Assembly (NCBI GenBank): GCA_027577595.1
Contig: JANBRJ010000001.1
Location: forward strand, 186,001 to 250,000
Source: Coemansia sp. RSA 487
Lineage: Eukaryota; Kickxellomycota; Kickxellomycetes; Kickxellales; Kickxellaceae
Length of the DNA stretch: 64,000 nucleotides
Direction: 5' to 3'
The notes beneath the pieces are model-generated. The model had not been told where the DNA came from and did not search any database. It saw nothing but the letters and a program-made list of their open reading frames with translations. Shown piece by piece: positions 4,940 through 58,385 of this stretch (positions are counted from its first letter, which is position 1; each line of letters starts with the position of its first letter). Position numbers and translations under genes: made by a program.

Positions 4940-7900
4940 TTATTTGGAACTACGAATCGCTTCAAGCAGACCCTGGACGTCTTCGATCCCGCTATTTAGC
5001 TTCTCCAGCATGCCATGCAGACCGTTTATCTGCGGCAATATCTCACTAGCAAGCTCGTTTGAGGCGCTTGAAACTGCTGCCTTTAAATCATACTGATTGC
5101 TCACGATCTCCTTCATCAAAAGCTTGATCGATGAGAGGTCATCCTGTATAGTGATTATGTTGCTTGCCTGCCTCTCTACATGGTCTTTTGTGAGCACACA
5201 GTTCATGTACTCAAATAAAATCATGCCACGTTTACTAGTTTTGTCGGGAAGCCTAGTTTTTTGCATTGGGTGAATGCGAGGGTTGGATGAATTGTCTCTG
5301 CTGCTGATTATGTCCTCCATATTTTTACTTGATATAGCGGTAATATCGCCATCGTATTCGCTTTCGCTTTCCTCCAGCTCTTCGTTCCAGATATCGCTAT
5401 AATACTCCTCCTTTTCCATGTTCCCCGATCCCTGGCTATTCTCCTGCCGAATACACGCTGTATTGATGCCGGAAAGGCCAAAATCTTCCCCAACAAGGCT
5501 ACTACGGTCATGCCAGTTATCAGCAGGCATAGCAGCAGCAAGAGCAGCTTCAACGATGTTTCTGCTGCCGTTCACAGCACCTATGGAGTTTTCCTTTTCA
5601 ATGCCTTCATCGTAAACTATATCAAACGGCGCCTGCTGAGAGCCTAGGGGCTTCTTCTGTCTCGCACTGGGGTCGACACGTCCTGCAACAACCAAGCAGC
5701 CTCCAGTGACGGGGTTGGTACTGTTGCTGTTGTTCAGAATATCGGGTACCGTTGGACCATCAGCAAAAACCGTACTTTCGCTGTTGTTGCTCTTGCTGCT
5801 CCCAATGTCATTAGGAAACTGCTCCGAAATCCGACGCTTCTTCGCCGCTGCAAAACCATCAGCAGGCTGATCCTCAGAGACACGCCTTGGCAAACAATCA
5901 TGTTTCCGGGCCACTGCATCAAACGAATAGCTGCTGCTTGAAATGCTTTGAATGTCAAACATATCCAAGGCACTTTTAGGCAGCAATATGGACTCTATAG
6001 GGGTATGGGGAGGAGTGTCAAGGATTTCGATAGGAAGCTGATCCTTGTTGCCAATATCCATTGCTGTGATGTTTTCTGCATGAATTGTGCGGAGCGTGGA
6101 TTGATTTGGATCTGGCAATACAGCTGCTGTTGGTGCTGATGTTTCAAGAATTGCTGGTCGACTTGTGGTTGCCCACTTGTGTGGGCAACAACGCACGCGC
6201 GCCAATATTGGGTGCTTTGGTGTTAGGTTAACCAATGGAAGAAAGTCAGAATCCCAGGCCTTGTTCCTAAGCTGCTCCGAGAATTCCATAAAATCGGATC
6301 GCTGAAATGTTTCCGAGCACATCAACGCATTTCCTTGTAGCATTCGGCGATAAAACGGCACGTCAAACAGTATAGCCATGTCTTGGAGCAAAACAGCTCG
6401 CAGCATTTTGAGCATGTTGCAAAATCCAGCTATTGTGTCGCGCTGAGCTTTTTCCTCAGGGTCGTCAGAGGTGTAATCGTAAACGGGAATGGTCTCTGCA
6501 AATGGGAAAATCGTGTGTTCTAGATTCGAAGGAGCGCTGTACTGCTGTCGCAATACGCCATAAGGCGCGGTACTATCCTGTGTATCAAACCCTGAGTTTC
6601 TCATTTGAACCGTTTCGAATGTTGGCCGCTGCAGAAAGTTGCTAGTCACATACATTGTGTTTGCTGTTGTGATAGCGCCTTGGAACATAAAATCCATCTT
6701 CTTTTCCTTCACCAAATAACACTGAGTGGGTTTTCTTATATGTTTGTACGTGCTTTGGCGGCTGAAGATAGACGTCACATACTCTTTGTAGAGGTCCCCG
6801 CAAACACTGCCAAGGTAGTCGTCGTTCGTAGAGCCATGGTTGCCAAACAACGGCTCGTCAGCCCATGACGGGTCTTCAAAGTCTGGCGGCGGGTCCTTCA
6901 AGACGTGCCATTTGTAGTAGAACAGTACAGCCAATGCATTCCACGGACATTGTAACGGAATTTTGTGCCTAAATATCTCCAACCTCTTTCTCCCACCATG
7001 CTCGGATGGTGTAGCCTTTCCCCGGCGTGGATCTCCGGTGGCGGCCGTGTCGTCGTAGGTGGTCTGCTTTTTGCTTTGCTCTCTGTCTTTGGTAGAGACT
7101 GTGATATAGCTTTGTGGGGTTGATCCTTGTAGACTACGCTTATGCCAGAGACTCAATGACCCAATTCTAATACCGTCGCGGAAAACCTCCGAATCGAGCC
7201 ACGTTGACGCATATAACAAATGCCAGAGACGCATTTCTAGGCTTGCGTACGATGCTCGCCGCAAAAGTATGCAATTAAGCAATATGTCGCTCTCAGTGGA
7301 AAACTGCCGCCAGCTACAGTCCATCAAAGAGGGAAATATTTTAACGATCTGACCACATGGCCCCTCGCCATAAATCGCATTTCTTTCCCGAGTTTGTGTC
7401 TCCGATGCACTAGTGTTACCCGATGAAGCATGCTCTTTCTGCAAACGCATAGAACCACTGGTGAAGGGTATGTACGACACACCATTGGCATAATATGTGG
7501 AAGCGTTGCTGCTATTATCCATGGCAATGACACGCTGAACGCTTTTTTGAGATTTTTCCATGCTGCTTCTATCTTTTGGTGGTGGCTGCCGCTGCTGCTT
7601 TGATGGAGCCTCTTTTTCTTTATCAGGGAAATCATTCTTTAGTCTAAAATATAAAATAGTGGTCGTTGGGTGGCGAATGTCACTATTAGTAAATGCGCTT
7701 GGTAGTTGTCAGCTATGCATTGGATTGTACCGTAACATTTTTGTACTCGATTCGGCAAATATCGCCTTCAAACTTACTCCTTTCTGATATAACGCCTGGC
7801 ACCGATAATAATAGGCCTAATCTCGTCTTTTGTCTTGGCAACATCCTCCGGACTAGCAGTATCAGGAGTGTCCCACACTACCCAGAGATCGTCTATTCTT

Positions 7901-21513: not shown

Positions 21514-22780
21514 ATGGACTCGAGTCAGACGGATCCACAAATCAGAGACGTTGAAATTAACCAACCGCCCACAGATTCAGTCAGTGAGCTGGCGTTTAAT
21601 CCAAAAGCCAATTTCCTGGCAGCCTCTTCTTGGGACAATGAGGTATGTTTACGCGTTATCAGAACGAAAGACACATTTAGACGCGTATTATTTTTTGACA
21701 GCTTTGCAAAACAGCAACAGCATGCTTATATTTTTACGAAAACGACTTTTATGGTTGATGTTTGGTCTATTGTTTTAGGTGCGGATCTGGGAGGTCATGG
21801 AAACTGGCGCGTCCGCTGGAAAGGCGTCTTATTCTCACGAAGCGCCTGCACTGTGCTGTGCATGGAGTAGGGTAAGTATACCGAGCCAAACTGTCAGGGT
21901 TCTATTCGGTTTACATAATATGTATTCTTCATGCTAGCTAATTTGTTGCTAGCCTTTTTATTACCAAACGCGGATATAGGACGGCTCAAAGATCGCCTCT
22001 GGCGGTGCAGACAAAGCAGGACGCATGCTCGACATAGGCACAGGGCAGACCGTACAGATTGCACAGCATGATGGACCGATCCGCTGCATCAAATTTGTGG
22101 AGGCTGAAAATAGCTCTCCGATTGTTGCTACTGCCAGTTGGGACAAAACACTCAAGTATTGGGACTTGCGGCAGCAGTCGCCTATTGGAACGGTTAATCT
22201 TCCCGAGCGCGCATATGCAATGGACTGTAACCACCCAATGCTTGTTGTTGCAACCGCTGAGCGGAAAGTACTGATTTTCAACCTGTCGAACCCGACAACG
22301 CCATTCGAAACAGCCGATTCGCCGCTCAAATGGCAAACAAGGACCGTGTCATGTTTTACGACAGGTGACGGCTATGCTATCGGTTCCATCGAAGGTCGAG
22401 TGGGTATCCAGTACGTTGACCCAAAGCTCAAAGATAAGAGCTTTTCGTTCAAATGCCACAGGGATTCCACCAAGACTATAGAAACACAGGTGTACTCAAT
22501 CAACTCGATTACCCATCACCCCATATACGGTACATTTGTTACTGGCGCCAACGACGGCTCGTTTGTTTCGTGGGACAAAGACTCTAGACACAAGCTCAAG
22601 ACGTACTCCAAGCTTGGTAGTCCTATCTTGAGTACAGCATTCAGCGGCGATGGCAAGCTATTTGCATATGCTCTTGGCTATGACTGGGCGCAGGGATACA
22701 AAGGAAACGTTGGCACGATTAAAAACACCATCAAGCTACATGCTGTTTTGGACGAAGACGTAAAGCCAAAGCAAAAGTAG
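21514..22780 (+). CDS. RAE1: RAE1/Gle2 mRNA export WD40 protein
   Basis: Three exons, 21514-21642, 21779-21871 and 21980-22780, are joined by introns of 136 and 108 bp with GTATGT and GTAAGT donors, in phase. The product is a 340-residue WD40 beta-propeller. Diagnostic segments are LAASSWDNEVRIWEV (first blade), DGSKIASGGADK, VATASWDKTLKYWDLR, FCTTGDGYAIGSIEGRV-like residues, and the C-terminal FAYALGYDW with a run of lysines. In other eukaryotes RAE1/Gle2 binds the GLEBS motif of nucleoporin Nup98/Nup116 at the nuclear pore and supports mRNA export. Length is slightly below the usual 350-370 because the N-terminal extension is short. Both early introns interrupt the first propeller blades. 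Confidence 0.97.
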
Positions 22781-23020
22781 GATGTGCCTTTGCTGGTATT
22801 CCCCCTGGCACGACATATTGCTTCTTTTTGTCGCAGTATCATCCCTGGCATTGTTCCGTTTCTTGAAGCTTAGAGCTTGCATTCCTCTCGTTGCATGCCT
22901 TTCGTCTGGCTCACAAGAAAACCGCACGCTATAGTACATCCTTTTTTAAACACCCCCTTTTATTAGCTTTTCATTTATTTTTGGTGTTGAGAATATCTTG
23001 TACAATGTTTTGCAAAAATA

Positions 23021-23130
23021 GTTGCGTCAGATAAGAAGGATGTATACGCGCCGAATGGTGGAAAGGGTTGTGGTGGCAACAGCGCATTTTGCGTTCCAAG
23101 AAAAAGCCGTTTACGTCAGTTGGTATTATA
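23021..23130 (+). repeat. Left terminal inverted repeat
   Basis: About 110 bases matching the reverse complement of 26883-26992 at roughly four of five positions by eye, with identical blocks such as GTTGCGTC, AAGGATGTATAC and CGCATTTTGCGTTCCA. Confidence 0.85.
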
Positions 23131-23330
23131 TTTGCGCTTGGAAGCAAGAGGCATAAACGGGGCTTTGTGAAGAAAGCAGTTCGCTGTACGCCTATTATTT
23201 CACACTAAAATAGATTGGCTTCTCGGTCTCTGTCTGTGCACTCGATGTGGTTAGTTAACATTGATCTTAACAAAGCCTAACAATCTGAAGAAATACCACT
23301 ACTACTTTGAACAAGAACAACAACTAAGCC

Positions 23331-23882
23331 ATGCACTCGTTGCCAGATGTAGATATATTGGAAGACTGTCACTCAAATAACGAGCCAGAGAACATGCTTG
23401 AACGCATACGTATGTTAATGGATATTTCATTGAAAAAGCCTCAAGCCGCTTCTGCTGCCAAAAAGAGAAAAGCGAATGGCAAGGAGATCAGGATCAGTGG
23501 GCATGTTGGCACGCGGACAGAGCACTTTCTGGCCTACGTCTCAAATGTAATCGATGCACTAGATGCAAAGAGCATGAAGGGCCAGTATCTTGTAATGTAT
23601 AATGCTCCAATCCACACGCTATTAGCCATTCGAGACCTAATAGAAAACAGAGGGTACAAGCGCCTATATCTGCCTCCATACTCACTTTTTCTAAATCCCA
23701 TTGAGGAGCTTGGGTTCAAAGTAGAATCGGGTGTTCACAGAACAGCGCTTCCAGCAGACTACAGACTCAGTGATAGAATATGCGAGGCAGTCAACAAAGT
23801 GATAGCATCAGCCTGTCAAGGCTACATCAAAAATTCCATGGTATTCTTCTCTCGCTGCAAAGACGGAGAAACAGATCTTTAA
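23331..23882 (+). pseudogene. Tc1/mariner/IS630-type transposase remnant (C-terminal half)
   Basis: A 183-residue open frame. Residues about 60-183 are the C-terminal part of a DDE_3-type transposase as found in many zygomycete elements: GTRTEHFLAYVSNVIDAL, then QYLVMYNAPIH, then LPPYSLFLNPIEE. The normal VMDNxxIH aspartate (second D of the DDE triad) is a tyrosine here, and the usual tryptophan after NPIEE is a glycine. The part with the DNA-binding helix-turn-helix and first catalytic aspartate is absent. The first 60 residues (Lys-rich near AAKKRKANGKEI) are not recognised and may come from a fused flank. The protein cannot be a working transposase, although the frame stays open and could still be translated. 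Confidence 0.8.
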
Positions 23883-24468
23883 ATCTTCTATTTTGACAAA
23901 CAAAACTTGTACACAATCCTCTGATTGCTGTGGATAGCTTGAAGGCCCCTTCCTTCAGTTACAATAACCAACGTTTCTGATTTTCTTTTGTAACTAGGAT
24001 AACGATTAGGCTCGCGAGTTGCCGACTCCATTGCAATGGGATTTTCTCATATCGGAACAACTATATTGTTGGAAAGTATACGATATATGCTTCCCAATTA
24101 TCTAGTTCAATTGTTGTAGTATTAGTACGGCCATAAAAGACAGGTTGTTTATGAAAAATAAAGACGAGGGACTTTTCTTTCATATGTTCTCTTGGTATTC
24201 TTGTGAAAAGTGGTATATCAGTATCACAAGTGTTCCCAAACAAGCTAAAGAACGAAAATAGAATGTGTGCCTGACTAGGAAAGGCAGCATGACATTGATG
24301 ACTTAGCGTTAGCCAATGCTATATAACGCCCAAAGGGCATTTGTTTTTCCTTTTCACTTTTGTTTCTCGGCTTTCCTTTGGCATTTTATTTCTACTAGTA
24401 ACGCTAAATAAACCTTTCAACGCATATATTATATTAGTCATTTGCTCTTGTTTGCGCACTTATCACCA

Positions 24469-26672
24469 ATGGGCAATGAGGATACATCAGACACAGAGAC
24501 ACGCGTTATAAAATGTCCCCTAAAGTCCCTGGTAAACGACAGAAATGACATTACTAAGGTAAACGACTATGTCGTAGTGGCCAACACAGCCTCTGCACAC
24601 ATGTATGGGCTGGCTCGTTGGATATTTGTCCATGAGATGGCTACTCACAAGCAGTTCGATCCCTCTGTGTACCTGGAAAGAGGTTTTTTGGTGAGGTATT
24701 CCTGCACCTCACCAAGCGGAAAGCCAGGCCGAATGCCAAGGCTGAAATCCAGGAGTACAGGAGGGTCATACGCAATCACCTGGATGCGTACAAAGAGGCT
24801 GCTGGCATCACAGAGTTTGATATAGCCAACCCAAACCAGACAGCACAGTTTGAGGCAGCAAGAATTTACACTGCGTACGTGAATAATATACAGACCAAGT
24901 TTGGTCAGCACCTTTGGCGTGCAGTAAATGTTCTGCTGAAAACACGGGAGCGCAAGAGGGACCTTGAGGAGACAATGAAGGGTAGAATAATGAATGAGAT
25001 AAAGGAAGCGTATGAAGACCAGATTTGGAAACCCGGACGAGAGTTGAAAGAGGCGATAAAGCACCGCGACACTGTTCTTCCAGTTATCACTGTGGGCGAC
25101 AAGAACATCGGGGACATGCTTGAACCTGTGTTGGCAGCATATGACAGCGACTACAGGTTTGAGGAGGAAGGTCTTTATTACGATATCAAGGCTCATCCAA
25201 AAAAGCACTTCAAAGCATTCTGCTGCTTGGCAGTGCTTCTTGAGACCAACGACTGCAGATCTTTCCAGTGTTTCCTGTTGCGGAAGTCATTTGTGCCAAT
25301 GCACATCGAAATTGACACCACTGTATTATGTCGAAGCATAATGGACTGGAGCTATAACGCAAAGTCCCCCATTGAAAGCTATTGGTACAGGTTTCTCAAC
25401 GAAAAATCGAGGGTGCTACGGACAAGCAACGGCTTCAGGTTCTATGGCACGATACAGACCGACGGCGTGTCAGTGTCAGTGATCAAAAAGACTGCAGCGA
25501 CCAAAGAAAAAAGCAGCTGGAAAGTGAAGAGAAGGGACACTGAAGCAAATGCTGCCATTGAGACCAGCGGAAGTGGGCCAGCTGCTTCAGTCGAGAGCGC
25601 AGCTACTGACTCACTGCCAGGGGACCAGCCCAGGAAGCCCAGGAAGCCCAGGAAGCGAGAAAAGCCAAGAGAAAAGAAGTCGGGTGAGTTCACATATATC
25701 CACGAGCTTTCGCCAGAGCAGCTGGCCAGCATGAAAAACCCGATTTTCATGGATCCGGGTCGCCAGGACATTATCTTTGGCATGACGGATAAGAGCACCT
25801 CTGAGGAGAAAGTCCTTTTCCGATACACACGGAGCCAGAAGGCTAAAGAAACCCGGACAACCCATTATCGCAAGCTGAGGGAAAAGGTTAAGAAAGAGCA
25901 TCCAGACAGTAACGAAATCAGGACCGCTGAAGCTAGATTGTCTGCTTTTTCGTGCACGCCGATATTTCCAGGTAAATATGAGCAATATGTCAGGATGCGT
26001 GCTGCTATTTGGCCAGTGCTGAGTAAATTCTACACAAACGCCATGACCACCAGCAAGAATGGGAACAACTCTCAGCCGATTCATCGCAAGCTTCGGCAAT
26101 CGGCCCACATCAAGCAGAAACAAGCCGATGAGCGGCTAGCAAAGAGCATTCGGGCGACATGCGACGATGAAAAACTCACTGTGATCTTAGGCAACTGGAG
26201 TGCGCCAATGGCTCGCTACCATGAGCCTATACGAGGAGTCGGATTTCGGCGAATGCTGAAGAAGAAAGGGTGCCAAGTTTACCTTATTGACGAATTCAGA
26301 ACATCAAAGGCTTGCCCGAACTGCCTCACCGGCACTCTCAAGAAGTTCCTGAAAGTTCTCAACACCCGCCCCTACCAACGAAAGAAGATGAAAGAAGTTC
26401 TCTGCCACGGTCTCCTTAAGTGCACCAACGAACTATGTATGGGGCCCGTGGAAGTGGATGGTGTTTTGGCTCCTAGTTCTCGCATGCACAACCGAGATCT
26501 CGCAGCCGTTCTCAACTTCAGGCATGTTTTCCATGGCCTTCGCGACCATGGCGAGACTCCAGAGCGTTTCTGTCGCAGTCAGCCTGCAGCTGTTACTACC
26601 ATCGGTGAACAGCAGCCCAAGAAGAAAAGGAAGACGACTGCAGCAAAGAAGACGGCGAGGACAAGCACATAA
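24469..26672 (+). CDS. Fanzor1 RNA-guided nuclease (TnpB-like), one frame disruption
   Basis: A Fanzor-family OMEGA nuclease. The frame from ATG 24469 runs to a T6 run at 24684-24689, where it shifts by one base into the long downstream frame. One extra T would give about 734 residues. From 24879 onward 597 codons are uninterrupted. In that segment the RuvC-like residues are D292 (FMDPGRQDIIFGM), an inert N439 at the canonical glutamate position (VILGNWSA), the relocated glutamate E472 (YLIDEFRTSKACPNC) and D540 (HNRDLAAVLNF). The zinc module is CPNC (479, 482) followed by a CxxxxC pair (515, 520). A basic linker (RKPRKPRKREKPREKK) precedes RuvC-I, and PKKKRK near the end is a classical nuclear localisation signal. 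Fanzor proteins cut DNA guided by an element-encoded RNA. The T-run shift may be a sequencing error, a real mutation or a slippage site. Confidence 0.9.
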
Positions 26673-26710
26673 CCACCACGAAATTCAGCCAAGGTTATAG
26701 CTGCGGCAAA

Positions 26711-26758
26711 TCCTAGTTCTAGGAATCCTAGTTTTAGGACAGGATGCTGGTGCTGTCC
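26711..26758 (+). ncRNA. Candidate omega-RNA scaffold hairpins
   Basis: Just after the Fanzor stop codon three small hairpins are packed together: TCCTAG/CTAGGA (26711-26724), TCCTA/TAGGA (26726-26739) and GGACAG/CTGTCC (26737-26758). The last two overlap and are alternatives. TnpB and Fanzor guide RNAs lie at the 3' end of the nuclease gene and run toward the element end, so the position fits. The RNA's limits (probably reaching the right TIR at 26992) cannot be set from sequence alone. Confidence 0.4.
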
Positions 26759-26882
26759 CTTTTGCAGGTAGGTGCTCTAATGAGAGCTGAAGAGATAAAC
26801 ATCTGTGACTGCTTTTTGACAATGGCACTAATCATTTCTGTTTTCTCTTGCGTGTTTTGCTGTTTTGCACTGACGTATATGC

Positions 26883-26992
26883 CATGCCACGCCAACCAAC
26901 GCAAACGACTTTTCCTGGAACGCAAAATGCGTTATTGCCACTGCAAACCTTTCACCATTCAACATGTATACATCCTTTTTATTCGACGCAAC
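26883..26992 (-). repeat. Right terminal inverted repeat
   Basis: Reverse-complement partner of 23021-23130, ending GACGCAAC before TA. Imperfect but with long identical blocks, indicating a moderately old or long-diverged pair. Confidence 0.85.
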
Positions 26993-27004
26993 TAGTTTTG
27001 CATA

Positions 27005-27510
27005 GCACAGCAATCAGCAACCAACGTTTTTGGCATCCGTAAACATATTGTTACTACTAATTATTTTTATTTTTAAGTTTCTATGCCCTCTTCTCACTTT
27101 TGTTGTGTGCATGTTATAATGACGACAATAAAAACATAGTACGTCTATATTTGTGTGCGCAACGTTGGATAAGAGTGCTGGTACGGGATATGAAAAAAAC
27201 AGCAACACGAAGCGTTCACTACTGAAGTTAGGATTCAGGTTTGTTTTGGAAGGAAACGACAGCGACAAAAATGAAAGCAGAGGATTTTTTATATCGTTGC
27301 TTGCAATTTACACACGAAAACATAACAGTTTCTACGGAAAACATGGTCATTGTGCCAGTACATTTGTCAAGGAGAGCCGCAAAACAGTTTCCCGCTTAAG
27401 CATGCCAAAAGACCAGTTACATATTCTTTTCTTCTTGTCTCTCTATTTAACAAACCAGTCTATATTTTGAACACGCCATTTGTGTTAAACTCGCAGGATA
27501 CAGTCACCGT
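27005..27510. other. Promoter region of the 771-aa gene
   Basis: AT-rich. An acceptor-like CTCGCAG lies 15 bases before ATG 27511, so a leader intron is possible. Nothing else recognised. Confidence 0.4.
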
Positions 27511-29826
27511 ATGCAGATCCAGGAAAACCAAGGTGCACCACCCGATGCTGATCGAGGTTCGACTGAGCTGTACGCTTTTCCGGTTCCGCCAATGGGCAGC
27601 CACGAGACCTCATTCCATTCGGACCACGATTTGGCAGCCATCGATAGCTATCGCAAGAGAAGCATGGCTAGCATGGATCCCCCGCTATTTGATACATCAG
27701 GCACAAACTCTGAGCCATATGAAATGTCGCAGCTAGAGCAGGAAAACCATTGTATCAGCCAGTTTAGGCGCTTCTCCAAATCAACAGCCTCTTTGCCCAT
27801 TATTCCGACCCATTTTGCCAACGGTGGCAAGATGAGCAGAAGCTCCATGGAGGCTGACGTTCTGAATACAGCGAGGTCGATAGAACTAGAAAGTAGCGGC
27901 GGATATGGCGCTGGTACAGGCAAGGCCAAACCTACAGTCAGGGCAGTCAGGTCTTACCACAATCTGCGCTCGGAAAATAACAGCCCTTTTTCGCAGTCGT
28001 TTTTTTCGCTGGATGGCAAGGATGAGCCGGTGCCTGAGACTTTGGGTTGTATCTCACCAGTCAAGACCACTGCCCAACCCTATGAGAATAACATGGAAAC
28101 ATCGTCATCTTCGTCAGGGACCATCACTCTGGTGTCATACGTATATGGCCAGCAACCAGTGCCGCCAGATGAAAGCGGCGGACACCGCGTACATCAGGAA
28201 ACAGGAGCACAAGGCTGCCTTTCCGAGCAATCGCTGTTTGCCGTGCCGGTGCCCCGAAGACAGTATAGTATGGCACAAATTGAAGCAAGGCTGAGCAATC
28301 GCAATTCGATGTTTGTTTCTGATGCTCTATTTTCTGGCGTCGCCTCGAGTGCTAGCGATACGGCGGAGCAGCCACTTGACAAATCAGGCTGTTTGGCTAG
28401 AAACCAAAAGCAAGAGAAAGTAACCATCGATATTCCTCCTCAATTCAACATTGACCCCCGTCGCACGTCGCGCTATCTGTACAACGTACCTTCGGGGCCA
28501 TTTAGGAGCAGTATCCATGGCCCACTAGCAAAGGCGCTGCAGTGGCCACAACGCATCGGCCATAACGCGCCTCGTCGCCTCCGTCGTACCAGAAGCTCGG
28601 TCATTGACCAGCACAAGATATACGACATTTACGAGGAAGCTGTCTGGCACTCTACCCGTACACCACAAAAGAATGCGGCAAGTATTGTGGCAGATGTAGA
28701 TGTTTTCTCATCTAGCAAGAGCGCAGCATCGAAACCCGACTCTAAGAACCTTTCTCGCAGCAGGATTCTTCATAAAAAGGCGAGTGCGCTTGGAGCCTTT
28801 GCTACGACACGTCTCAAGTCACTGGGATCTACAAAATCTTCTGGAATGTCCTGGAACTTTATTCGCTCTTGGAAGCCCCGTGGCGAGACTCAGGAGGGAC
28901 CAGACGACTGGTACGATCCGTCCAGCATCCCAACAGACTACGCCGACAAAATTGACGACGACGACGATGACGGCAGCGAGAATGGCGTGGATGAACCGGA
29001 CTCGGACATATCCTTGTTTCGCACAAGCGCAAGTGATGCACAAGGCAAAAAGCCAGTTCGCAAGCCGTCAACGATTCAGATGTTTGTAAAGCGCGCAGGA
29101 AAAGGGTTGCTACGTCGATCAGCCAGCTTTTACAAAAGTGTATCCAGTACATCAACAGCCGACAGCGGGAAGCTTAACAAATCGATGCTTGATACGCACG
29201 GCAAGTACGACCTTGGCATTTCAAGCGCAGATGTTTGCGTAGGCGATTCAAAGAGATACACAATGAGAAGTCGCCTAACTAGCGCCATGCGCCAAGCTAG
29301 CGGGAAGATTCGCAGTCCTCTCAAGTATCTCGACAAGAGCAGCACATCGCACCACGATGAAGATGCCGACGTTGTATCTGCGTATCCGACAGATTCGATG
29401 AAGGGAAATGAGCTGGATTCGTACCTGTCGCTTTCTGCGCTCCATTCGCCCGTGATCTCGTCGTCGGAAGACTCGGGTACGTCAGATTCTCAAGATATGC
29501 CTGCCAGCGATGAAACTGTCTGTTTCGACCAGGAAGCTGTGGAATCGCTAAACAGGAGGTATGTTCCGCCCAAGAGACCGCCTTACTTGGGCCTTCACCG
29601 CAAGACAGCTAGAAAATCTGTCATCGACTGTGGTGCAAGACCTTTATCTGCTGTATCCGCAGAAAGTGTGCAGCCAACACCGCCTAACATGGCTGCTGCT
29701 TCGCTAAGGCTTCGCCCGACACAGTTCAATTCGCCGTTTATGACGCTTCCCTACGCTACATATGCACAACTCAGCCAAACAAATGGGAATCAGCAGCAGC
29801 ACGATCCACGCTTTGGCCACACGTAG
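27511..29826 (+). CDS. Large disordered protein, 771 aa, unknown
   Basis: A single long frame rich in Ser, Arg, Pro, Asp and Lys, with no signal peptide, membrane span or recognised domain. Visible features are a conserved-looking block near residues 305-385 (KVTIDIPPQFNIDPRRTSRY, then ALQWPQRIGHNAPRR, then KIYDIYEEAVWHSTRTP), a basic region around residues 410-450 (ILHKKASALGAFATTRLKSL), an acidic run of aspartates near residue 483, and many SP/TP and basophilic phosphorylation-like sites. The pattern suggests a regulated scaffold or polarity/cortex-type protein, but that is only a guess from composition. The first ATG after an acceptor-like site was taken as start. Confidence 0.7.
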   Translation: MQIQENQGAPPDADRGSTELYAFPVPPMGSHETSFHSDHDLAAIDSYRKRSMASMDPPLFDTSGTNSEPYEMSQLEQENHCISQFRRFSKSTASLPIIPTHFANGGKMSRSSMEADVLNTARSIELESSGGYGAGTGKAKPTVRAVRSYHNLRSENNSPFSQSFFSLDGKDEPVPETLGCISPVKTTAQPYENNMETSSSSSGTITLVSYVYGQQPVPPDESGGHRVHQETGAQGCLSEQSLFAVPVPRRQYSMAQIEARLSNRNSMFVSDALFSGVASSASDTAEQPLDKSGCLARNQKQEKVTIDIPPQFNIDPRRTSRYLYNVPSGPFRSSIHGPLAKALQWPQRIGHNAPRRLRRTRSSVIDQHKIYDIYEEAVWHSTRTPQKNAASIVADVDVFSSSKSAASKPDSKNLSRSRILHKKASALGAFATTRLKSLGSTKSSGMSWNFIRSWKPRGETQEGPDDWYDPSSIPTDYADKIDDDDDDGSENGVDEPDSDISLFRTSASDAQGKKPVRKPSTIQMFVKRAGKGLLRRSASFYKSVSSTSTADSGKLNKSMLDTHGKYDLGISSADVCVGDSKRYTMRSRLTSAMRQASGKIRSPLKYLDKSSTSHHDEDADVVSAYPTDSMKGNELDSYLSLSALHSPVISSSEDSGTSDSQDMPASDETVCFDQEAVESLNRRYVPPKRPPYLGLHRKTARKSVIDCGARPLSAVSAESVQPTPPNMAAASLRLRPTQFNSPFMTLPYATYAQLSQTNGNQQQHDPRFGHT

Positions 29827-47165: not shown

Positions 47166-50150
47166 ATGCCGTCGGACAGCGAGAGCGGCTCCCGAGCAAG
47201 TTCAGAGAGCAGCGGCCGAAGGGGCAGCGTATCGTCGGAGGCGAGTGCTGAAAGCCTTGGCGATAGCAACCAGCAACATAAGCTGCGGCATTCCGCATCA
47301 GAGCGGGATCACAAGAAAACAACACCATACAGCAGCAGCAGTGATACAGGTAGTACGGATAGTGATACAGGCAGCGATGATAACGAAAGTAGCGATGGCC
47401 AATACAGCACAGACAATGCACACGGTGATACCCAAAAGCTGCTGTCGGAATGGCCAAAGCAAGATAAACCGAGCCATCATCCGTTGTCTTCTCAGCCCAA
47501 CGTAGTTGTTTCTGCTGTTGTTGCTGGCACAGCGACTAGCTCATCGATGCGCGGCCGTTATATGCCTCCTTCTATGAGACGGCAGATGATGGCCGCAGCC
47601 GTAAAGACAGCAGGAAACAGTGAGCGGGCAAAGGCGGAGGTTGAGCAACGCGAGAGCTGGGAAGGCCTCAAGAAACGCGTAAACGGCCAGATCAACAAAG
47701 TAAATACGTCAAACATCAAGGAAATAATCGTCGAGCTTTTTTCGGCAAATCTGATCCGTGGGCGGGGCTTGTTTTGCCGCTCGGCTATCAGGGCCCAATC
47801 ACTGTCCCGGCCGTTTACGCCCGTGTATGCAGCCCTTGTCGCGGTAGTGAACACAAAGCTTCCGATCGTTGGGGAGCTTTTGCTGACCCGGCTTGTGCTA
47901 CAGTTTCGTCGGGCGTTCAATCGGGACGAGAAAGATAGGTCATTATCGGCTGTCATGTTTATTGCCCATCTGACGAACCAGCGGGTGGCCCACGAGGTCT
48001 TGGCACTGCAGGTGCTGACGCTGCTACTTGAGAACCCAACCGACGACAGCGTGGAGATTGCGGTAGCTTTTATGCGAGAGGTTGGTGCGCTTTTGGCTGA
48101 GATCGTCCCACGCGTGCTCAATGCGGTGTTTGACACATTTAGGTCGATTCTGCACGATGCGGATATAGACAAGCGCATCCAGTATATGATTGAGGTTCTA
48201 TTTCAATACCGACGAGACGGATTCAAGGACAACCCCACAATCCCTGATGGTCTCGATTTGGTCGAGCTAGAAGAGCAGATTATTCACGAGGTTGCATTGG
48301 ACGACGATGAGCTTGATGGACAGGATGAGCTAAACGTCTTCAAGCTTGACGAAAACTTTGAGGAGAACGAACGCAAGTACGATAGTATCAGGAGTGAGAT
48401 CCTTGGTGATGGAGACAACAGTGAAGGCTCTGGAGGGGAAAGCGGTGGTGAAGAATCGGGTACAGAATCTGACGTAGAGTCTGGATCAGAGAGCGACACT
48501 GAAAGCAGCGATGAGGATACTGAGGCAATTGCTACTTTGGCAAAAGGAGCTTTGGGGACGCCTGCCACTCAAAAGATCCATGATCTGACAGAAACAGAGA
48601 TGATCAACCTTCGACGCACGATCTATCTGTCAGTTATGTCTAGTCTTAGCTTCGAGGAAGCCGCACACAAGCTTTTGAAGATTGAGATCCGCCCAGGCGA
48701 GGAGCAAGAGCTGTGCAACATGGTCATCGAGTGTTGCTCCCAGGAGCGTACATACAAGACGTTTTTTGGTATGATTGGCGAGCGCCTTTGTAAGGTCAAC
48801 CGTGCGTGGGCCAATGGGTTTTCCAAAGCGTTTGAATCGTGTTACGAAAACATCCACAGATACGAGACAAACCACATTCGCAACATTGCCCACTTCTTTG
48901 CACACCTTCTAGCTTCCGATGCGCTAAAGTGGTCGGTGCTAATAGCCGTGGTGTTGACTGAAGAAGCTACCACATCTTCCTCGCGCATCTTTTTAAAGAT
49001 ACTGTTGCAGGACCTCGCCGAGTCACTTGGGCTCAAGGCACTGAACAGCAGGCTAAAGTCAACGGATCCGACCATGTCAGAAGCAGTCAAAGGTATGTTT
49101 CCGAGTGACAGTGCAAAGTCCATTCGCTTTGCAATTAACTACTATACAAGTATTGGGCTAGGTGCAATAACCGAAGAGATGCGCGAGTGGCTGAAATCAG
49201 CTCCGACCCTAACAGTTGGTGGTAGCGACAGTGACAGTGGCAGCGAAAGTGATACGGATAGCGGAAGTAGCAGTAGCAGCGGCAGCTATTCTAGGAGCGG
49301 GTCTGGGAGCTCTTCTGGGTCTGCTTCAGATTCAAGATCGTCTTCAGGCTCATACTCAAGCTCTGGATCTGCTTCGTCAGACCCAAGATCAGAGTCAGAA
49401 TCTGACTCCTCCCACAGTTCTCGTTCCGGTGCCAGTTCGCATACTTCAGCTTCGTCTGCCGATTCGAATACTTCCAGAGGTAGGAGGTCGAGACAACCTC
49501 GACACAAGAGCAATGATATAAAGAGGCCGCCTATTCGCTCATCTAGCCGTTCGCCTGGCGCATCGCCGAAGAAGTTTAAGCGTGTTACCGATGAAGCAGC
49601 TAGTCTTCACTCGGTAGAGGAATTGACTGTGTTGCATGTAAGGTCTGAAAACACAAACAGTGCAACCAAGGCAGAGTCGACAATTTTGAACCAAGACAAG
49701 CCTCAGACCAGCCATGTCCGTTCGCCTGAGAAGCCAAAGAAGCATGCTCTTTCTCCGTCTCGCTCGCCAAAAAGCCCGCTATACAAACGGGGCCGCTCTG
49801 CATCTCCTGAGCCCGTTTCGCCAGAGTATGAGACCAAAACAGCTATGCGCGACCTGGCAATCAGTGACCGCAGCAGAGATAATAGCTCTAGATACCGCCC
49901 AAAGCCTCGCAACACTTCACGTCCAAGATCGCCTCGTCGGCGCTCAAGATCTAGAGACACGCGTGATAGATATTATAGCAGCAGAGACGACGGCTATTAC
50001 GGTCGGAACTATGACATATATAGTGGTGATGGTAGGAAAGATAGGTACGAAAGAAGCAGAAATCACGGAAGACGTGATTACTCCCGGTCAAGGTCGCCAA
50101 GGAAGCACTACGAATCATACTCTTCCAAAGCAGATCGGCGCAGACGCTAG
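47166..50150 (+). CDS. CWC22: CWC22 pre-mRNA splicing factor
   Basis: A 994-residue intronless gene. The first in-frame ATG is 47166. Residues 1-150 are Ser/Asp-rich and disordered. Residues about 160-350 form a MIF4G domain (SWEGLKKRVNGQINKVN, IIVELFSANLIRGRGLFCR, TPVYAALVAVVNTKLP), and about 475-590 an MA3 domain (LRRTIYLSVMSSLSFEEAAH, TYKTFFGMIGERLCKVN). From about 685 to the end there are Ser/Asp-rich then RS-rich tracts (SPRRRSRSRDTRDRYY). CWC22 belongs to the spliceosome, helps the first catalytic step through the Prp2 helicase, and in animals recruits eIF4A3 for exon-junction deposition. The long RS tail is like that of metazoan CWC22 and much longer than in baker's yeast (577 residues). 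Converges with KAE1, 106 bases between stop codons. Confidence 0.95.
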   Translation: MPSDSESGSRASSESSGRRGSVSSEASAESLGDSNQQHKLRHSASERDHKKTTPYSSSSDTGSTDSDTGSDDNESSDGQYSTDNAHGDTQKLLSEWPKQDKPSHHPLSSQPNVVVSAVVAGTATSSSMRGRYMPPSMRRQMMAAAVKTAGNSERAKAEVEQRESWEGLKKRVNGQINKVNTSNIKEIIVELFSANLIRGRGLFCRSAIRAQSLSRPFTPVYAALVAVVNTKLPIVGELLLTRLVLQFRRAFNRDEKDRSLSAVMFIAHLTNQRVAHEVLALQVLTLLLENPTDDSVEIAVAFMREVGALLAEIVPRVLNAVFDTFRSILHDADIDKRIQYMIEVLFQYRRDGFKDNPTIPDGLDLVELEEQIIHEVALDDDELDGQDELNVFKLDENFEENERKYDSIRSEILGDGDNSEGSGGESGGEESGTESDVESGSESDTESSDEDTEAIATLAKGALGTPATQKIHDLTETEMINLRRTIYLSVMSSLSFEEAAHKLLKIEIRPGEEQELCNMVIECCSQERTYKTFFGMIGERLCKVNRAWANGFSKAFESCYENIHRYETNHIRNIAHFFAHLLASDALKWSVLIAVVLTEEATTSSSRIFLKILLQDLAESLGLKALNSRLKSTDPTMSEAVKGMFPSDSAKSIRFAINYYTSIGLGAITEEMREWLKSAPTLTVGGSDSDSGSESDTDSGSSSSSGSYSRSGSGSSSGSASDSRSSSGSYSSSGSASSDPRSESESDSSHSSRSGASSHTSASSADSNTSRGRRSRQPRHKSNDIKRPPIRSSSRSPGASPKKFKRVTDEAASLHSVEELTVLHVRSENTNSATKAESTILNQDKPQTSHVRSPEKPKKHALSPSRSPKSPLYKRGRSASPEPVSPEYETKTAMRDLAISDRSRDNSSRYRPKPRNTSRPRSPRRRSRSRDTRDRYYSSRDDGYYGRNYDIYSGDGRKDRYERSRNHGRRDYSRSRSPRKHYESYSSKADRRRR

Positions 50151-51719: not shown

Positions 51720-54695
51720 ATGGTTTCCTTGCGTTATCTAGATGGCGTCAAGCTGTTTAGCACCAGCCATATCGCACGGAAGGCATGGCCACAAACATCA
51801 CCCACACATGGCATGTCGGCGCTTTTGCAAAGCCGTCGATGGAAGGAAGTGCCACCTATGCCAAGACAGCCGGTTCCTACCATTGATCTGGAGAGTCTTA
51901 TGAAAGCCGGTACCAGCGCGCGTATCCACAATCCACTTCTTGATCTGCAGAATAAAGAGAGTGTGGTAGAAATGTCCCGCAGAGATGCGGAGGCTAAGGA
52001 GATAGATAATATTTTGTCAAAGCACGGTAATACGTTTCCACTGTCTCCCATTGACCATTACAGCGTCGAAAGAAAAAAGTTTTTGAGTCTGCACCATGGC
52101 ATTGACAAAACTCCTACGCGAGTTTTCCATGGAGTTGAAGATCCAGGAGAGACCCTTAACCTGAAGCCTGCATTTGGCGATGTCGCAGTGTTTCGGAAGA
52201 GTATACATACTGGTATCGTACAAAAACGCGAGAGTCGGATCTTCCCTAACGAGTTTTTGTTCGCGAAGCCAAAGAACACATACGAATACTACTTAAAACA
52301 TCTCACTCTCTATGTACATGCGTTACACATGCTTCGGGAAACCGACAAAAGAACGTTCACATCGTACTTGGATGACTTTTTCTTGATTATCAAGGCGATT
52401 CGCCAACGGCCAGCATTCCATGCGAAGCTAGTTGGCATGTTCGAGTACAAAAAGCTTGTGCTATGCTATCTTTTGTTCGACAGACAACATCACCTTGCGT
52501 TGATGCTAGCGATAAATGTATTCCCCAACGTAGTGCCTGATATGCTGGACCGATGGCTTGTGACTGGAGTTATGGAGCTCTACACATTCCAAGAGGTGAA
52601 TACGGCAAATCTTAAGATCCTGGAAAGTTATAGACAGGCAGTCCAGGAGTACAGCCACAATAGGGAAAAACTCGAGCGCATGTCAAAGGTCAAGAAAAGA
52701 AGAGAAAACCTGGTTCCGGGACCAATAGCCATGAAGGAAATCCGCATCGAGGCTCTTGTAAGTACGATAATCGAGTACTACCAGAGCGACAAGAACATAG
52801 TCATGAGCGCCTGGGAACTAACGCAGCTGATCAGACTGGCCAAAAGGCGGCTCAAGTCGCATGGATTGATGATACTCATTCCGCTAGTACTAAAGTATTT
52901 TTACCAGTACGATGCAAAGATGTATTCGGCAGAGAACAAAACCATGTTCTTTTACGACTGGTGGATATGGAAGTACAAGATCGAAGGCTTTCAGATGGCG
53001 ATGTATTACATAAAGTCATTTGTCGATATTGGAGAGTACGAAAAGGCGCAGTCTATCGCGGAGACTATCAAAAGCATGCCACCCAAACCGATTAAGGGGT
53101 TGACAGGCAGTTCAAGAGACATTGCCTGTGCACTTAAAGGATTGCTTGTCGATGAGCGGGGATTATCCGATCTGCTCCTCGTTGTTTTTGATGGGTTTGG
53201 TACAGTTCATATCAAAAAGAGCAACAAAGCTGATCAGGGGAAGCCAAAATACGCAAAGCTCAGGCTAATGCTTGCAGAACATGTAGTTAAATCGGCAAAG
53301 ACAAGAGATGACAAGAGCGCAGATGCAGCAACAGCAATGCTTGGCTCATTGACCTGTCGGATGCAATCGCTAACTGTAATGGCTATCATCCGCCGGCTGG
53401 ATGGTGTTAATGTGAGCCTTGCAATTGGATGGATAACGCGCAACTATTACGGATTCGACAAAGAGGCGCAGAAATCTGCGTTCGCTTGGCTGACTGAAAA
53501 CCTTGTGAAGAACAGGAATGGATGTGTCCACTTTATCCAGGACTATTCGTTCAAGGATCCTGTGACGGTTTCTCGGCTGGTGCATCTAATCTCGCGCCAA
53601 CTTGCTGGCAAAGAATCGGACAGAAAGTACATCCTTGACGCGGCCCAGAAACATATTTTGAGCACTGGAAATGCAAAGGCAATCGGCTCTCTTCTCATTA
53701 CTGCGTCTCAGGGGCCTGAAATGCCTGTTCTGTCGTCGTTTGGGCCGCAGTCGCCAACAGCATGTGCGCGGATGGTCACAAGGTTCATCAAGTCGATCAA
53801 ACAGACGCCTGATATGGACATTCCGGCGCTGGTCCCGTTCCTGTTCAAGGTGGCACAGCTGCTCAACTCTAGAAAGATGGAACAGATGCTGTGGAAGGAG
53901 GTGCTGCGGCATGGCATTGATGTTGACCAGCAGATACTGAAACTGTCTCTCGGAGTACGCCTTGGACAGGGCGACCGCAACAAAGACACACTTGAGCTAC
54001 TTTATCATGCGCTTTGCCTAAAGGCCAACTTTGAGGAAAGCGGCCAAACCGAACAGCCGCTGCTAACAAGTGGCGCAGACAGTAGTCACTTTGGTTCTGG
54101 TAGCCTTGCAGCGCTCTATATGACGATTCTAAATGGAGCCAATCATGCAGGAGCGTATGATGCAGTCGAACTACTTGCCAACTTCATGCTCAACAGCGGC
54201 GAACTGTCTAACCGGTCGTTTGGCTCTTTGGCGTCGATCTGGCTGGACTCAACAGGGTTTTCCAAGAGCTCATCCAGAGATGATGTCCAGCGAGTATGGA
54301 ATGCCCTTGGCTCCTATGTTGGACCAAAAGCGGCTGCCGCAAGCAATCGGGAGGAGTACTGTCTTAACCGCAACCATTACCACTCTGTGATCGAGGCACT
54401 TATTCGCCAGGGCGATGTGGAAGGAGCATGGAATATGATCCAGGTGGAGCTGCGCAAAGCACTGATTAAGCCTGACCTGAAGACATTTTACACGCTTACT
54501 TCTCCGCTTGCCAGCAACAGCCAGCTTTGGTCAATCGGCAAGACGATGGTGCAAAGATTCGCCATGCACTACCCAGAGATCGTAAAGGAGGCGCTCCAAG
54601 ACCGCTCCAACACACCCATTGTCCAGGCACTGCTGCGCATGTCACTGAAGGAGGCGGATGGGGCCACTTTGTCTAATACTGCCCATATAAAATAG
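51720..54695 (+). CDS. Mitochondrial helical-repeat (PPR-like) protein, 991 aa
   Basis: A single long frame. The first 40 or so residues (MVSLRYLDGVKLFSTSHIAR and onward) are Arg/Ser-rich, poor in acidic residues and amphipathic, as expected for a mitochondrial presequence. The rest is alpha-helical with repeated paired-helix segments, including C-terminal HYHSVIEALIRQGDVEGAWN and FYTLTSPLA segments that resemble pentatricopeptide repeats. The overall size and layout resemble fungal mitochondrial RNA-maturation or translation factors of the PPR class. The N-terminal half has conserved-looking blocks (KNTYEYYLKHLTLYVHALHM, MFFYDWWIWKYKIEGFQMA) that I cannot assign. An RNA-binding role in mitochondria is inferred. 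Confidence 0.7.
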   Translation: MVSLRYLDGVKLFSTSHIARKAWPQTSPTHGMSALLQSRRWKEVPPMPRQPVPTIDLESLMKAGTSARIHNPLLDLQNKESVVEMSRRDAEAKEIDNILSKHGNTFPLSPIDHYSVERKKFLSLHHGIDKTPTRVFHGVEDPGETLNLKPAFGDVAVFRKSIHTGIVQKRESRIFPNEFLFAKPKNTYEYYLKHLTLYVHALHMLRETDKRTFTSYLDDFFLIIKAIRQRPAFHAKLVGMFEYKKLVLCYLLFDRQHHLALMLAINVFPNVVPDMLDRWLVTGVMELYTFQEVNTANLKILESYRQAVQEYSHNREKLERMSKVKKRRENLVPGPIAMKEIRIEALVSTIIEYYQSDKNIVMSAWELTQLIRLAKRRLKSHGLMILIPLVLKYFYQYDAKMYSAENKTMFFYDWWIWKYKIEGFQMAMYYIKSFVDIGEYEKAQSIAETIKSMPPKPIKGLTGSSRDIACALKGLLVDERGLSDLLLVVFDGFGTVHIKKSNKADQGKPKYAKLRLMLAEHVVKSAKTRDDKSADAATAMLGSLTCRMQSLTVMAIIRRLDGVNVSLAIGWITRNYYGFDKEAQKSAFAWLTENLVKNRNGCVHFIQDYSFKDPVTVSRLVHLISRQLAGKESDRKYILDAAQKHILSTGNAKAIGSLLITASQGPEMPVLSSFGPQSPTACARMVTRFIKSIKQTPDMDIPALVPFLFKVAQLLNSRKMEQMLWKEVLRHGIDVDQQILKLSLGVRLGQGDRNKDTLELLYHALCLKANFEESGQTEQPLLTSGADSSHFGSGSLAALYMTILNGANHAGAYDAVELLANFMLNSGELSNRSFGSLASIWLDSTGFSKSSSRDDVQRVWNALGSYVGPKAAAASNREEYCLNRNHYHSVIEALIRQGDVEGAWNMIQVELRKALIKPDLKTFYTLTSPLASNSQLWSIGKTMVQRFAMHYPEIVKEALQDRSNTPIVQALLRMSLKEADGATLSNTAHIK

Positions 54696-55576
54696 GAAGC
54701 AGGCATGGCCTGGCGTTTAGACGATTGTAGCAAAAATCGCTTTTATACATAAATTGGTGCAATAAACATTCTCACTACCATCATCCAATTTCTGCACAAC
54801 AAATGCGCAATTTGCAAACAGACAAAAAGTATATGTTCCGACATTGCGGTTTGACACTTGCATGTTTTTTAGCGATTGATGCAAAAAGACATGCTAGCAA
54901 GTAGGATAGACCATTACTGCAAAGTCCATGTAAAGCTTGAAGGTTGTGTCTCCACGTCATGCCATCTCTATTTTTCATGTTCTGATGAAGGAGTGGACAA
55001 CCAACAAATGTCAGCAGGTAAGAAAATCTCAATTTGCTTGCTTTCTGTTTCCTTGCGCAAAGAAACGAAAATCATATTACGACCTGCATTTCAAGGAAGA
55101 ATAAAAAGTCGCACTGGACGTGAGATGGGGAAATACAAGCATGAGCATAATCGTTTATGTATTTTTTCTTCTTGAGATGCAGAACAGCATTCTACTGTAC
55201 GTACTGTCAAGCAGGAAAGCCAGCAAACAATGCAGACACACGTATTGCGCTGTTTCTTGACCACGCGTGGTAGTGTGTATGGGGAGATAAAATTAGAAGA
55301 TTAGCACGCATCTGTATCGAGACAAAACACGGAAAAAGAAAGAAACAAAAGTAACGAAAGATGAGTTAATGTGCAGTATTCATTTTCGTTTCCAAAATTT
55401 TGCCATTGCTACTTAAACAGTACACCCGCTGTATATAATCCCCAGCCCTTTCTCTACTCTCCTTGTTCAAAACAGCCTCGCTACATATACATCCCAGCCT
55501 TTTTCTTTTTTATTCTCTCCAATTATTATCTATTTTTATAAACAGCATTTACTCTTGTATTTACAACCTCCTGACG
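54696..55576. other. Intergenic region with TATA box
   Basis: AT-rich. A TATATAA box near 55431 and a pyrimidine-rich leader serve the methyltransferase gene starting at 55577. Nothing else seen. Confidence 0.45.
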
Positions 55577-57481
55577 ATGATGGCCGTATCTGTTGAAGGA
55601 TTGCCTGCACCCACCGCAAATATACAGACCGCGGTGGCCACCAGTAAGCCAGAATCACGCATTGAGCCCAGCAAAAGCACCATCAATGACCACAAGCAAG
55701 AGTGGACCGAGTTCTGGGAGCATCCGGACGCAGACGAGCATGGCCAGAAGGGGCCATCGGTTGCCTTGCGCGAGCTTCTCGAGGATCTCCGATGGCTGCT
55801 GCCCAAGGGCCGCTGTCTTGTCGCCGGGTGCGGCAACGGCCAGGACGCTGTGTATCTGGCCAAGCGAGGCATTACCTGCATTGCAATTGATTTCTGTGAC
55901 GCAGCAATAGCGCGGGCCCAGAAGGTAAGTTTTTGCATCACATTTTCTCGAGACACAAAGCATAGCGGAGTTGGATGTTTCTCGGATTTTCTGAACATCG
56001 ATTGAAGGCATTGCACGGAAGCAGGAAATGTGGGAGTGAGAAATCCACACCCCCCACTCAGCAAAAGCACATTGTTTTATGTGTTTTGCCTTTCCTCTCC
56101 TTTCTTTCTCATCTTCCTGTCTCGCTGTGAATGGGTGGTTCTTTGTGAATCCAATGCCTGCCTCCTGGCTGACACAAGAAGTTGTTGGAATGCCATCGTC
56201 TTTGTCTACTTTGGCTTGATTCAAGTAAAGAAAGTAGCATGTGCTGAGAAAAAGCAGCTAGTGAGAAGAGCATTGTCGCAGTATTTTGGCCAAGCACGGC
56301 ACAAGGCACGCAAAATGCACATATTCAACATACATGTCTCTCGGAGGGTCTCTTTTGTCCCCAAAAACAAGCCGAGGCATGCATCATCTTTCCCAATCGT
56401 GGCTGGTTGTATCGTAGAACGAAAGAGAGAACGGACGCACTGCTCTAACAGGAAGCATTGGAGCTTGCATTGTTTTGTCTGCCATCCTTCTTTCCATGCG
56501 TGTTTGATTTTCTATTGTTCCGAATGGTACTAAAGCTATATGGAATTTTTGCATTCTAAGTAGTTGCTTGAGTCGTGCGACGATTTGTCAGCGGGAAAGC
56601 TCACGCTGGCTGTGCAGGACTTTTTCACGCTCAGCCCGCCGGTTCGCTTTACCACTGCCTATGAGTACGGGTAAGTTTGATGCGAGTAATATAAAAGCCA
56701 CATTGTTTTTTTGCCGATCCAGTCGTGGGTGTGTTGCTGTTAGTCTTTATTTTTAGCAAACTTTTCCTGCCATGGCTCCAAAAATGCGCATGCAGAAGAG
56801 ACATACAGCACAGCAGTCTGCAACACATTCTAAAATTGTCTCTCTCACACTCACGCTTGTTGGATATGATATGCCCTGCTAATTTGCTCAGCTCATGCAT
56901 TGCTGAAACGCACCATTTCTTGCGTAACGTCACTTGTGCTTGCATCCTCCATTGCCTTCCAAAGCACTGTCCACCAGAAGGGGAAAGGTCCCTAAGTGAT
57001 ACATAAATAAAAACATCCTCGTGTTGGACAGAATGACACAATCAACCAAGTCGATCGAGAGGGTGTATCTATTCTGCACCAGACATGTAGCAGAGTCTAC
57101 AGAAATGGCAGAAGCTTTTCAGTAAGGCATCTCACAACTTTATTCTCCTACAACAGTCTCCTAAATGCCATCAAAATACCTCCTGTACAATAATAAATAA
57201 CACATGCGTTGGTTATCTGTAGGCTATTTTCGGCGATTCATCCGTCACAGCGTCAGCGGTGGGCCGCGACCTATGCGCGGTTAATTGTTCCGCAGGGCAC
57301 GTTGATTGTTCTGCTCTGCCCTCTTATCCACCGCGGCCGTGCGCCGCCATATCGAGTGTCAATGATCGAGTGCGAAAGGTATCTAAAGAACTACTTTGTT
57401 CTCGTGCGTGTGGATCCAAACTGCAAATGCATCGACGGCGACGAGGGCAACGAACTAATGTCCGTCTGGAGAAGACTATGA
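55577..57481 (+). CDS. TPMT-type thiol methyltransferase 1, three exons
   Basis: Exons 55577-55924, 56564-56670 and 57223-57481 join in phase across introns of 639 and 552 bp (both GTAAGT donors) to give 237 residues. The TPMT/thiol methyltransferase fold is shown by EWTEFWEHP near residue 42, the SAM-binding loop VAGCGNGQDAVYLAKRG near 82, AIDFCDAAI, QDFF, FSAIHPSQRQRWA and the C-terminal GNELMSVWRRL. These enzymes transfer a methyl group from S-adenosylmethionine to thiols or halide/thiocyanate ions. The substrate cannot be told from sequence. The next gene is a shorter, intronless paralogue in the same orientation. The N-terminus has two adjacent ATGs (55577 and 55580). Confidence 0.85.
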
Positions 57482-57740: not shown

Positions 57741-58385
57741 ATGGCCTACAAAAGAACAGCAACCGTGGCTCCAGACGAATACAACAAGATCTGGTTCAAT
57801 TGCTGGAACGAGAGCAGGACCATGTGGGACCAGGGCGACATATCCCCTGCGCTGCGTGAATTGATTCAGGAGAAGAAATGGGAGCTTCCGAGTGGCAAAG
57901 GCATTGTTCCTGGCTGTGGCCGTGGCTACGACGCAATGTTCCTGGCATCGCCCTCGCTGCACATGGTCGGTATCGACATCAGTCAAATAGCTGCAGACAC
58001 CGCCAACAAGCTGCGCGACGAAAAAGGGCTTCCCAGCAGCCTTGTCGACTTTAAGGTCATGGATTTTTTCAACTTTGAGGTGGCCGAAAAGTACCAGGTA
58101 GCGTACGACTACACGTTTTTCTGCGCGCTCCACCCATCGATGCGCAAGAGCTGGGGCGACCGGTACGCGGAGATCATGGCTCCTGGCGGCCACTTGATTG
58201 CGCTCATGTATCCATTGTGGAAGGAGGAAAAGGACAGGGACGTTGGTCCTCCGTTCCTCCTCTCCGAAGACGATTACCACCAGATACTGGATGACAACTT
58301 TGAGCTTATCCACATCGATCCACATTGCAAGACACACGAAACACGTGCTGGCCATGAGCTCATAACTGTTTGGCGCCGCAAGTAG
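57741..58385 (+). CDS. TPMT-type thiol methyltransferase 2, intronless
   Basis: A 214-residue single-exon paralogue of the preceding gene, 260 bases downstream. Motifs are EYNKIWFNCWNE, the SAM loop VPGCGRGYDAMFLA near residues 56-69, VGIDIS, VMDFFNFEV, DYTFFCALHPSMRKSWGDRY and the C-terminal AGHELITVWRR. It is complete for the TPMT family and closer to the family norm than its neighbour, which carries an N-terminal extension. Same-strand placement indicates tandem duplication or two long-separated paralogues kept together. The missing introns could reflect intron loss, or gain in the neighbour. Likely a cytosolic detoxification or halide/thiol methylating enzyme; substrate unknown. Confidence 0.9.
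   Translation: MAYKRTATVAPDEYNKIWFNCWNESRTMWDQGDISPALRELIQEKKWELPSGKGIVPGCGRGYDAMFLASPSLHMVGIDISQIAADTANKLRDEKGLPSSLVDFKVMDFFNFEVAEKYQVAYDYTFFCALHPSMRKSWGDRYAEIMAPGGHLIALMYPLWKEEKDRDVGPPFLLSEDDYHQILDDNFELIHIDPHCKTHETRAGHELITVWRRK

Follow-up and report, generated by a model that had tools for sequence, protein, structure and literature searches.

Fanzor1 proteins are known enzymes that cut DNA under the guidance of RNA. In 2013, Bao and Jurka described Fanzor1 genes in Tc/mariner elements that are flanked by TA duplications, occur with or without a transposase and in some cases have degenerated coding sequences, and the same account lists Fanzor1 in Rhizopus, Phycomyces and Mucor (PMC3627910). 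The elements that it names bear prefixes standing for Phaeocystis virus (PGv), Pythium (PUl), Phytophthora (PCa) and Hydra (HMa), and an OLpv element is named as well. Two fungal proteins with solved structures are available for closer comparison, namely those of Parasitella parasitica (PpFz1; PDB 9cf0-9cf3; Xu et al. 2024, PMC11423790) and of Spizellomyces punctatus (SpuFz1; PDB 8gkh; PMC10432273). Here we describe an element of 3,972 bp at positions 23021-26992 of a 64-kb stretch of contig JANBRJ010000001.1 (all 64,000 nucleotides analysed are referred to as the window), the coordinates being exactly those proposed in a first-pass annotation of this DNA. Compared by description only, the element has the same architecture as PGv-1, PUl-1 and PUl-4, in which inverted repeats and TA enclose Fanzor1, in some cases together with a Mariner-like transposase (PMC3627910). 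We consider it quite probable that the element represents one non-autonomous copy of a transposon of the Tc1/mariner type (TA-targeting, DDE) carrying Fanzor1, and that it most likely makes no full-length nuclease. Because the 2013 account (PMC3627910) already covers Fanzor1 genes in TA-flanked Tc/mariner elements, the locus is a new example of that combination and not a new system.

The element is bounded by imperfect terminal inverted repeats, which were delimited by repeat search, blastn and end-to-end alignment. The left repeat (23021-23123, plus strand, 103 bp) starts with GTTGCGTC and the right repeat (26892-26992, minus strand) is 101 bp long; their alignment contains 84 matches, 16 transitions, one transversion and two gap columns. 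A TA dinucleotide is located outside each end (23019-23020 and 26993-26994) as the target-site duplication, the arrangement expected of a Tc1/mariner element, bearing in mind that a 2-bp duplication alone arises by chance in about 1/16 of cases. When the left end was compared with the window by blastn, apart from itself it matched the right end alone (82.3% over 113 columns, some flank included, E 1.2e-22), the right end gave in addition four chance-level matches of 13-19 nt (E 0.64), and no second copy of either end was found within the 64 kb. Two of the six inverted pairs returned by the repeat search of positions 22000-28000 are the element ends, the other four being 15-18 nt long. The inverted repeats and flanking TA of the first-pass annotation are thus confirmed.

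Longer repeats were also considered, as the end alignment runs outward through GCAAAA, yet by eye no fitting direct duplication lies there and the TA reading was taken. With that reading, the empty site (23003-23020 joined to 26995-27010) is near-palindromic around the TA, TGCAAAAATAGTTTTGCA, which may reflect either a palindromic target or repeats that extend outward. The differences between the two repeats are transitions in 16 of 17 instances, the pattern expected from cytosine deamination.

Next to the left repeat, stops occur in each of the three forward frames between 23124 and 23345. The open reading frame (ORF) at 23331-23882 (plus strand, 183 aa) is a truncated transposase remnant of the DDE (IS630/Tc1) type, as had been proposed, and matches Pfam DDE_3 above the cutoff (E 1.2e-10, 41.8 bits against 28.6, profile positions 59-135 of 146). 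It also matches one PHROGs family of unknown function (E 4.7e-6), with one further weak match (E 0.04). The second catalytic aspartate, which belongs to the consensus motif DNAPIH, is replaced by a tyrosine (23598-23600). The first glutamate of the NPIEE sequence is positioned 35 residues past this tyrosine, in agreement with the DD34E spacing rule of Tc1-type transposases. No match was obtained for the region that would hold the first aspartate and the DNA-binding domain, and the IS630 model is left uncovered over its first two thirds. No internal stop is present over the 183 codons. Since the stub is stop-free while lacking its N-terminal part and one catalytic aspartate, it looks like the product of truncation rather than of slow decay beside a protected gene.

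The Fanzor1 gene follows on the same strand. Its main body (24681-26672, 663 codons) contains an N-terminal/REC-WED region, a RuvC domain and a C4 zinc finger, the domain names being assigned by homology to PpFz1 and SpuFz1. In a search of PDB sequences, the ORF at 24879-26672 matched PpFz1 (9cf0) with an E value of 3.9e-78 and SpuFz1 (8gkh) with 2.4e-39, with a weak match to GtFz1 (0.027), which upholds the identification as Fanzor1; the C-terminal 166 residues share 44% identity with PpFz1 and 31% with SpuFz1. All of the motifs named in the first-pass annotation were located: the RuvC catalytic residues D (25752), E (26292) and D (26496), the zinc-finger cysteines (26313, 26322, 26421 and 26436) and the PKKKRK nuclear signal, which forms part of a C-terminal QPKKKRK at 26613-26633. 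An RD motif is present as well. The published TnpB/Fanzor motif, D-X(125,275)-[TS][TS]-X-X-[C4 zinc finger]-X(5,50)-RD (PMC3627910), was searched for by a regular expression in which the spacing within the C4 finger was set by us and not taken from the paper; the sequence fits it, with TS starting 183 residues after D25752, followed by the C4 finger and by an RD that starts 19 residues past the last cysteine. The glutamate at 26292 aligns with the glutamate of PpFz1 and SpuFz1 in the DE[FY][RK]TS segment common to both solved Fanzors. By PDB chain numbering (offset 394, which places D383 too) it corresponds to SpuFz1 E541, a residue reported to bind metal (PMC10432273). Taken with the repeats and the DDE_3 match, these matches and motifs support the earlier proposal of a Fanzor1 aboard a DNA transposon, here of the Tc1/mariner type.

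PpFz1 is the best solved match and has the D/E/D and zinc-finger layout in common with the window protein. It differs in carrying an FRI insertion of about 100 aa (PMC11423790), for which the window protein has no counterpart, as the PpFz1 matches end at chain position 986 (query 390) and restart at 1096 (query 402). The S. punctatus element SPu-1 resembles the present one in being an inverted-repeat Fanzor1 element with a putative TA duplication and no FRI insertion (PMC10432273, PMC3627910). On the other hand, SPu-1 is described as about 2.1 kb long with repeats of 30-33 bp and a single ORF (PMC10432273, PMC3627910), whereas the element described here spans 4.0 kb with repeats of about 100 bp and a transposase stub.

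The first-pass annotation had treated 24469-26672 as one long nuclease frame, which does not hold. At a run of six T (24684-24689, plus strand), which reads T TTT TTG in phase and is part of the 5' arm of a hairpin predicted here, the frame steps by -1, as seen from the ORF frames and from the PpFz1 alignment. The first 71 codons (24469-24681, plus strand) are in one frame and the 663 codons of the main body in the -1 frame, neither being open throughout, so the single uninterrupted coding frame expected of a Fanzor1 gene is interrupted here. Searched on its own against the PDB, the N-terminal piece of 74 aa gave two chance-level matches only (E 0.73 and 0.92). Joined to the main body as one query with X at the junction, it took part in a PpFz1 match over residues 31-198 that passes the junction ungapped (E 7.9e-23), and the second piece matches PpFz1 from its very start, FFGEVFL. 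An intron at the junction was rejected because the PpFz1 similarity passes without a gap through the T run and the residues that follow, and excision would delete conserved sequence. Both pieces are free of in-frame stops, leaving the step at the T run as the sole disruption in about 734 codons. The description of a nearly intact Fanzor1 overlooked this break and is therefore overstated in its first part; the frame break lowers the case for a working Fanzor1 and leaves that for a Fanzor1 gene standing. Barring a sequencing error at the T run, this Fanzor1 gene is most likely dead. With a stub for a transposase and a broken Fanzor1, a full-length nuclease is therefore most likely not made.

Several results weigh against this reading of the element. 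The Pfam scan of the nuclease returned only Cas12f1-like_TNB, below the cutoff (E 0.00057, 20.4 bits against 26.3), and the PHROGs and NCBIfam searches with the nuclease gave no match at E up to 0.1. An AlphaFold2 model of the 597-aa ORF, made without an alignment, had a mean pLDDT (predicted local distance difference test) of 37 and a pTM (predicted template modelling score) of 0.20. The match of the stub to NCBIfam transpos_IS630 (E 2.9e-7, positions 205-274 of 299) scored 30.2 bits, far under the cutoff of 100, and the PDB sequence search with the stub found no match at E up to 1. Folding of the right end, as described below, gave no significant guide RNA signal. Finally, the gene could be broken at the T run either by mutation or by sequencing error, and in the latter event it would be intact.

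The last of these points, a homopolymer error of sequencing or assembly in a gene that is intact in the organism, has in our estimate an appreciable but clearly minor chance of being correct. Homopolymer runs in hairpins are a typical place for sequencing errors, and the lone disruption in the whole coding sequence falls in just such a run within a strong predicted hairpin; the stop-free reading in both pieces was counted for the same explanation. Against it, other long ORFs of the window read through runs of six to seven identical bases (T7 at 28000, T6 at 47737 and 48762), a comparison that is biased as these ORFs were chosen for being open. The same hairpin bears on a further explanation, which we hold to be very improbable, that full-length Fanzor1 is produced by -1 ribosomal frameshifting at T TTT TTG with the aid of the adjoining hairpin. 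The -1 direction, the phase and the form of the heptamer all agree with slippage at this site, but any frame change inside the T run would yield T TTT TTG automatically. For the 60 nt that begin at 24681 the folding energy is -24.2 kcal/mol, a value reached by 0.6% of 1000 synonymous recodings, and recodings as stable amount to 2% for a stretch of 45 nt and 9.8% for one of 30 nt. The predicted fold contains a perfect 9-bp stem, TGGTGAGGT/ACCTCACCA; perfect stems of 7 bp starting within 12 nt are found at 1.4% of positions in the Fanzor1 gene. However, this stem starts within the heptamer and not downstream of it, while known frameshift stimulators start some 5-9 nt after the heptamer, and the tests were picked after the sequence had been seen and concern one copy only. 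If frameshifting were true, a eukaryotic transposon would tune the dose of an RNA-guided nuclease as bacterial insertion sequences tune that of their transposase.

The first-pass annotation saw the nuclease as better preserved than its transposase and took this to suggest selection on the nuclease or a recent loss of transposase function. That the nuclease was kept by selection after the loss of the transposase is a proposal that we regard as improbable. The divergence between the two repeats (Kimura two-parameter distance 0.203, or 0.101 substitutions per site per copy) was used to simulate the gain of stops under neutral decay in 2000 runs, assuming that the repeats were identical at insertion. 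At 0.101, 4.4 stops are predicted in the two Fanzor1 pieces and none are seen (P 0.0095). Slower decay weakens this deficit (P 0.082 at half the rate and 0.22 at 0.03), and the repeats of such elements may differ from insertion onward. The transposase stub is likewise free of stops (P 0.58, a test with no power), and a selected nuclease sits badly with a frame break in its gene. As identity of the repeats at insertion is an unverified assumption, the simulation does not establish selection on the nuclease. We think it extremely unlikely that stub and nuclease stem from separate elements, one nested in the other. Counted in favour of nesting is a gap of about 590 bp with no recognised gene, between the stub, which ends at 23882, and the first nuclease ATG at 24469. 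Both genes are nevertheless enclosed by one repeat pair, no inverted pair longer than 18 nt was found beyond the element ends in the 6 kb searched (22000-28000), and published Mariner-Fanzor1 elements are described as carrying both genes (PMC3627910).

Concerning guide RNA, target motif and cutting, our reading of the single non-autonomous transposon copy follows published work on relatives and is correspondingly conditional. In the SpuFz1 guide RNA, the right end supplies a scaffold of 75 nt and the flank a further 14-15 nt (PMC10432273), and for insect-virus Fanzor1s the repeat and duplication are predicted to lie within a guide RNA that reaches about 15 nt beyond the duplication (PMC10711439). 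The guide RNA bound by the Fanzor1 of a working copy would be made of the right end of the element and the adjoining host flank. Once loaded with it, Fanzor1 would cut DNA in which a match to the flank stands behind a short left-end motif, as is the case for the empty donor site or for an allele lacking the insertion; such cutting might help the element to persist or to be copied back. In the present copy the stub transposase is unable to act catalytically and Fanzor1 is broken by the -1 step at the T run. If the element is read in the manner of SpuFz1, the host flank at 26995-27009 (plus strand) would be the putative guide of 14-15 nt; a 16-nt query from 26995 matched nowhere else in the window when as many as three mismatches were allowed. 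The left flank ends in ATA and so fits the ATN target motif reported for PpFz1 (PMC11423790), although the TA part comes with the insertion itself.

The folding of five stretches at the right end was compared with shuffled sequences, giving z values of 0.47, -0.01, -0.12, -1.24 and -1.98 (the last for 26673-26752), against -0.83, -0.96 and -2.84 for three control stretches elsewhere in the element, the last of these being within the coding region. A hairpin search identified a 6-bp stem in the right repeat, AACGCA-AAA-TGCGTT (26919-26933, plus strand), which starts 74 nt from the right end and is the only perfect 6-bp stem with a loop of 3-8 nt in 26673-26992, while 94 such stems occur in the 64-kb window. 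Stem-loop 1 of the guide RNA is 7 bp long in three solved complexes (PMC11423790), and the hairpin could be a weak candidate, as a lead only, for stem-loop 1 of the guide RNA scaffold. Scans of the window for tRNAs and for Rfam families (gathering threshold) found nothing.

At E up to 0.01, eight of the ten neighbouring ORFs scanned match Pfam families; these include the eukaryotic families TH1, WD40, F-box, proteasome and TsaD, and GH16 too. From these neighbouring genes and the best Fanzor relatives, the setting of the element looks like a fungal one. An ORF of 873 aa on the minus strand (4940-7561) has an NDC10_II domain (E 4.1e-14), a protein that we take to fit a fungus. In fungi, NDC10_II proteins can be Crypton-type tyrosine recombinases, and this ORF may be a second mobile element in the window. 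A TPMT-type methyltransferase was identified by Pfam at 57741-58385 (plus strand), and the ORF at 55463-56005 (plus strand) resembles by eye the N-terminal part of a relative, the two possibly being a tandem pair. Two long plus-strand ORFs, at 27511-29826 (771 aa) and 51720-54695 (991 aa), have no Pfam match at E up to 0.01.

Relatives were also sought in collections of viral and prokaryotic contigs, in which an absence says little about fungi. The Fanzor1 body gave no pattern match in the viral collection and seven stretches with no relatives in the prokaryotic one; in the viral collection, the transposase stub gave 32 stretches and the alignment of the three C-terminal sequences 36, again with no relatives. 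Among the matches listed in a literature search made by Fanzor-related terms and not by species name, no title concerned this particular element. Taken alone, the element changes little. It adds one FRI-less, PpFz1-related Fanzor1, housed in a mariner-type element with a transposase stub still recognisable. Should the host contain sister copies whose frame is open, these could be used to ask directly whether the nuclease survives longer than the transposase.

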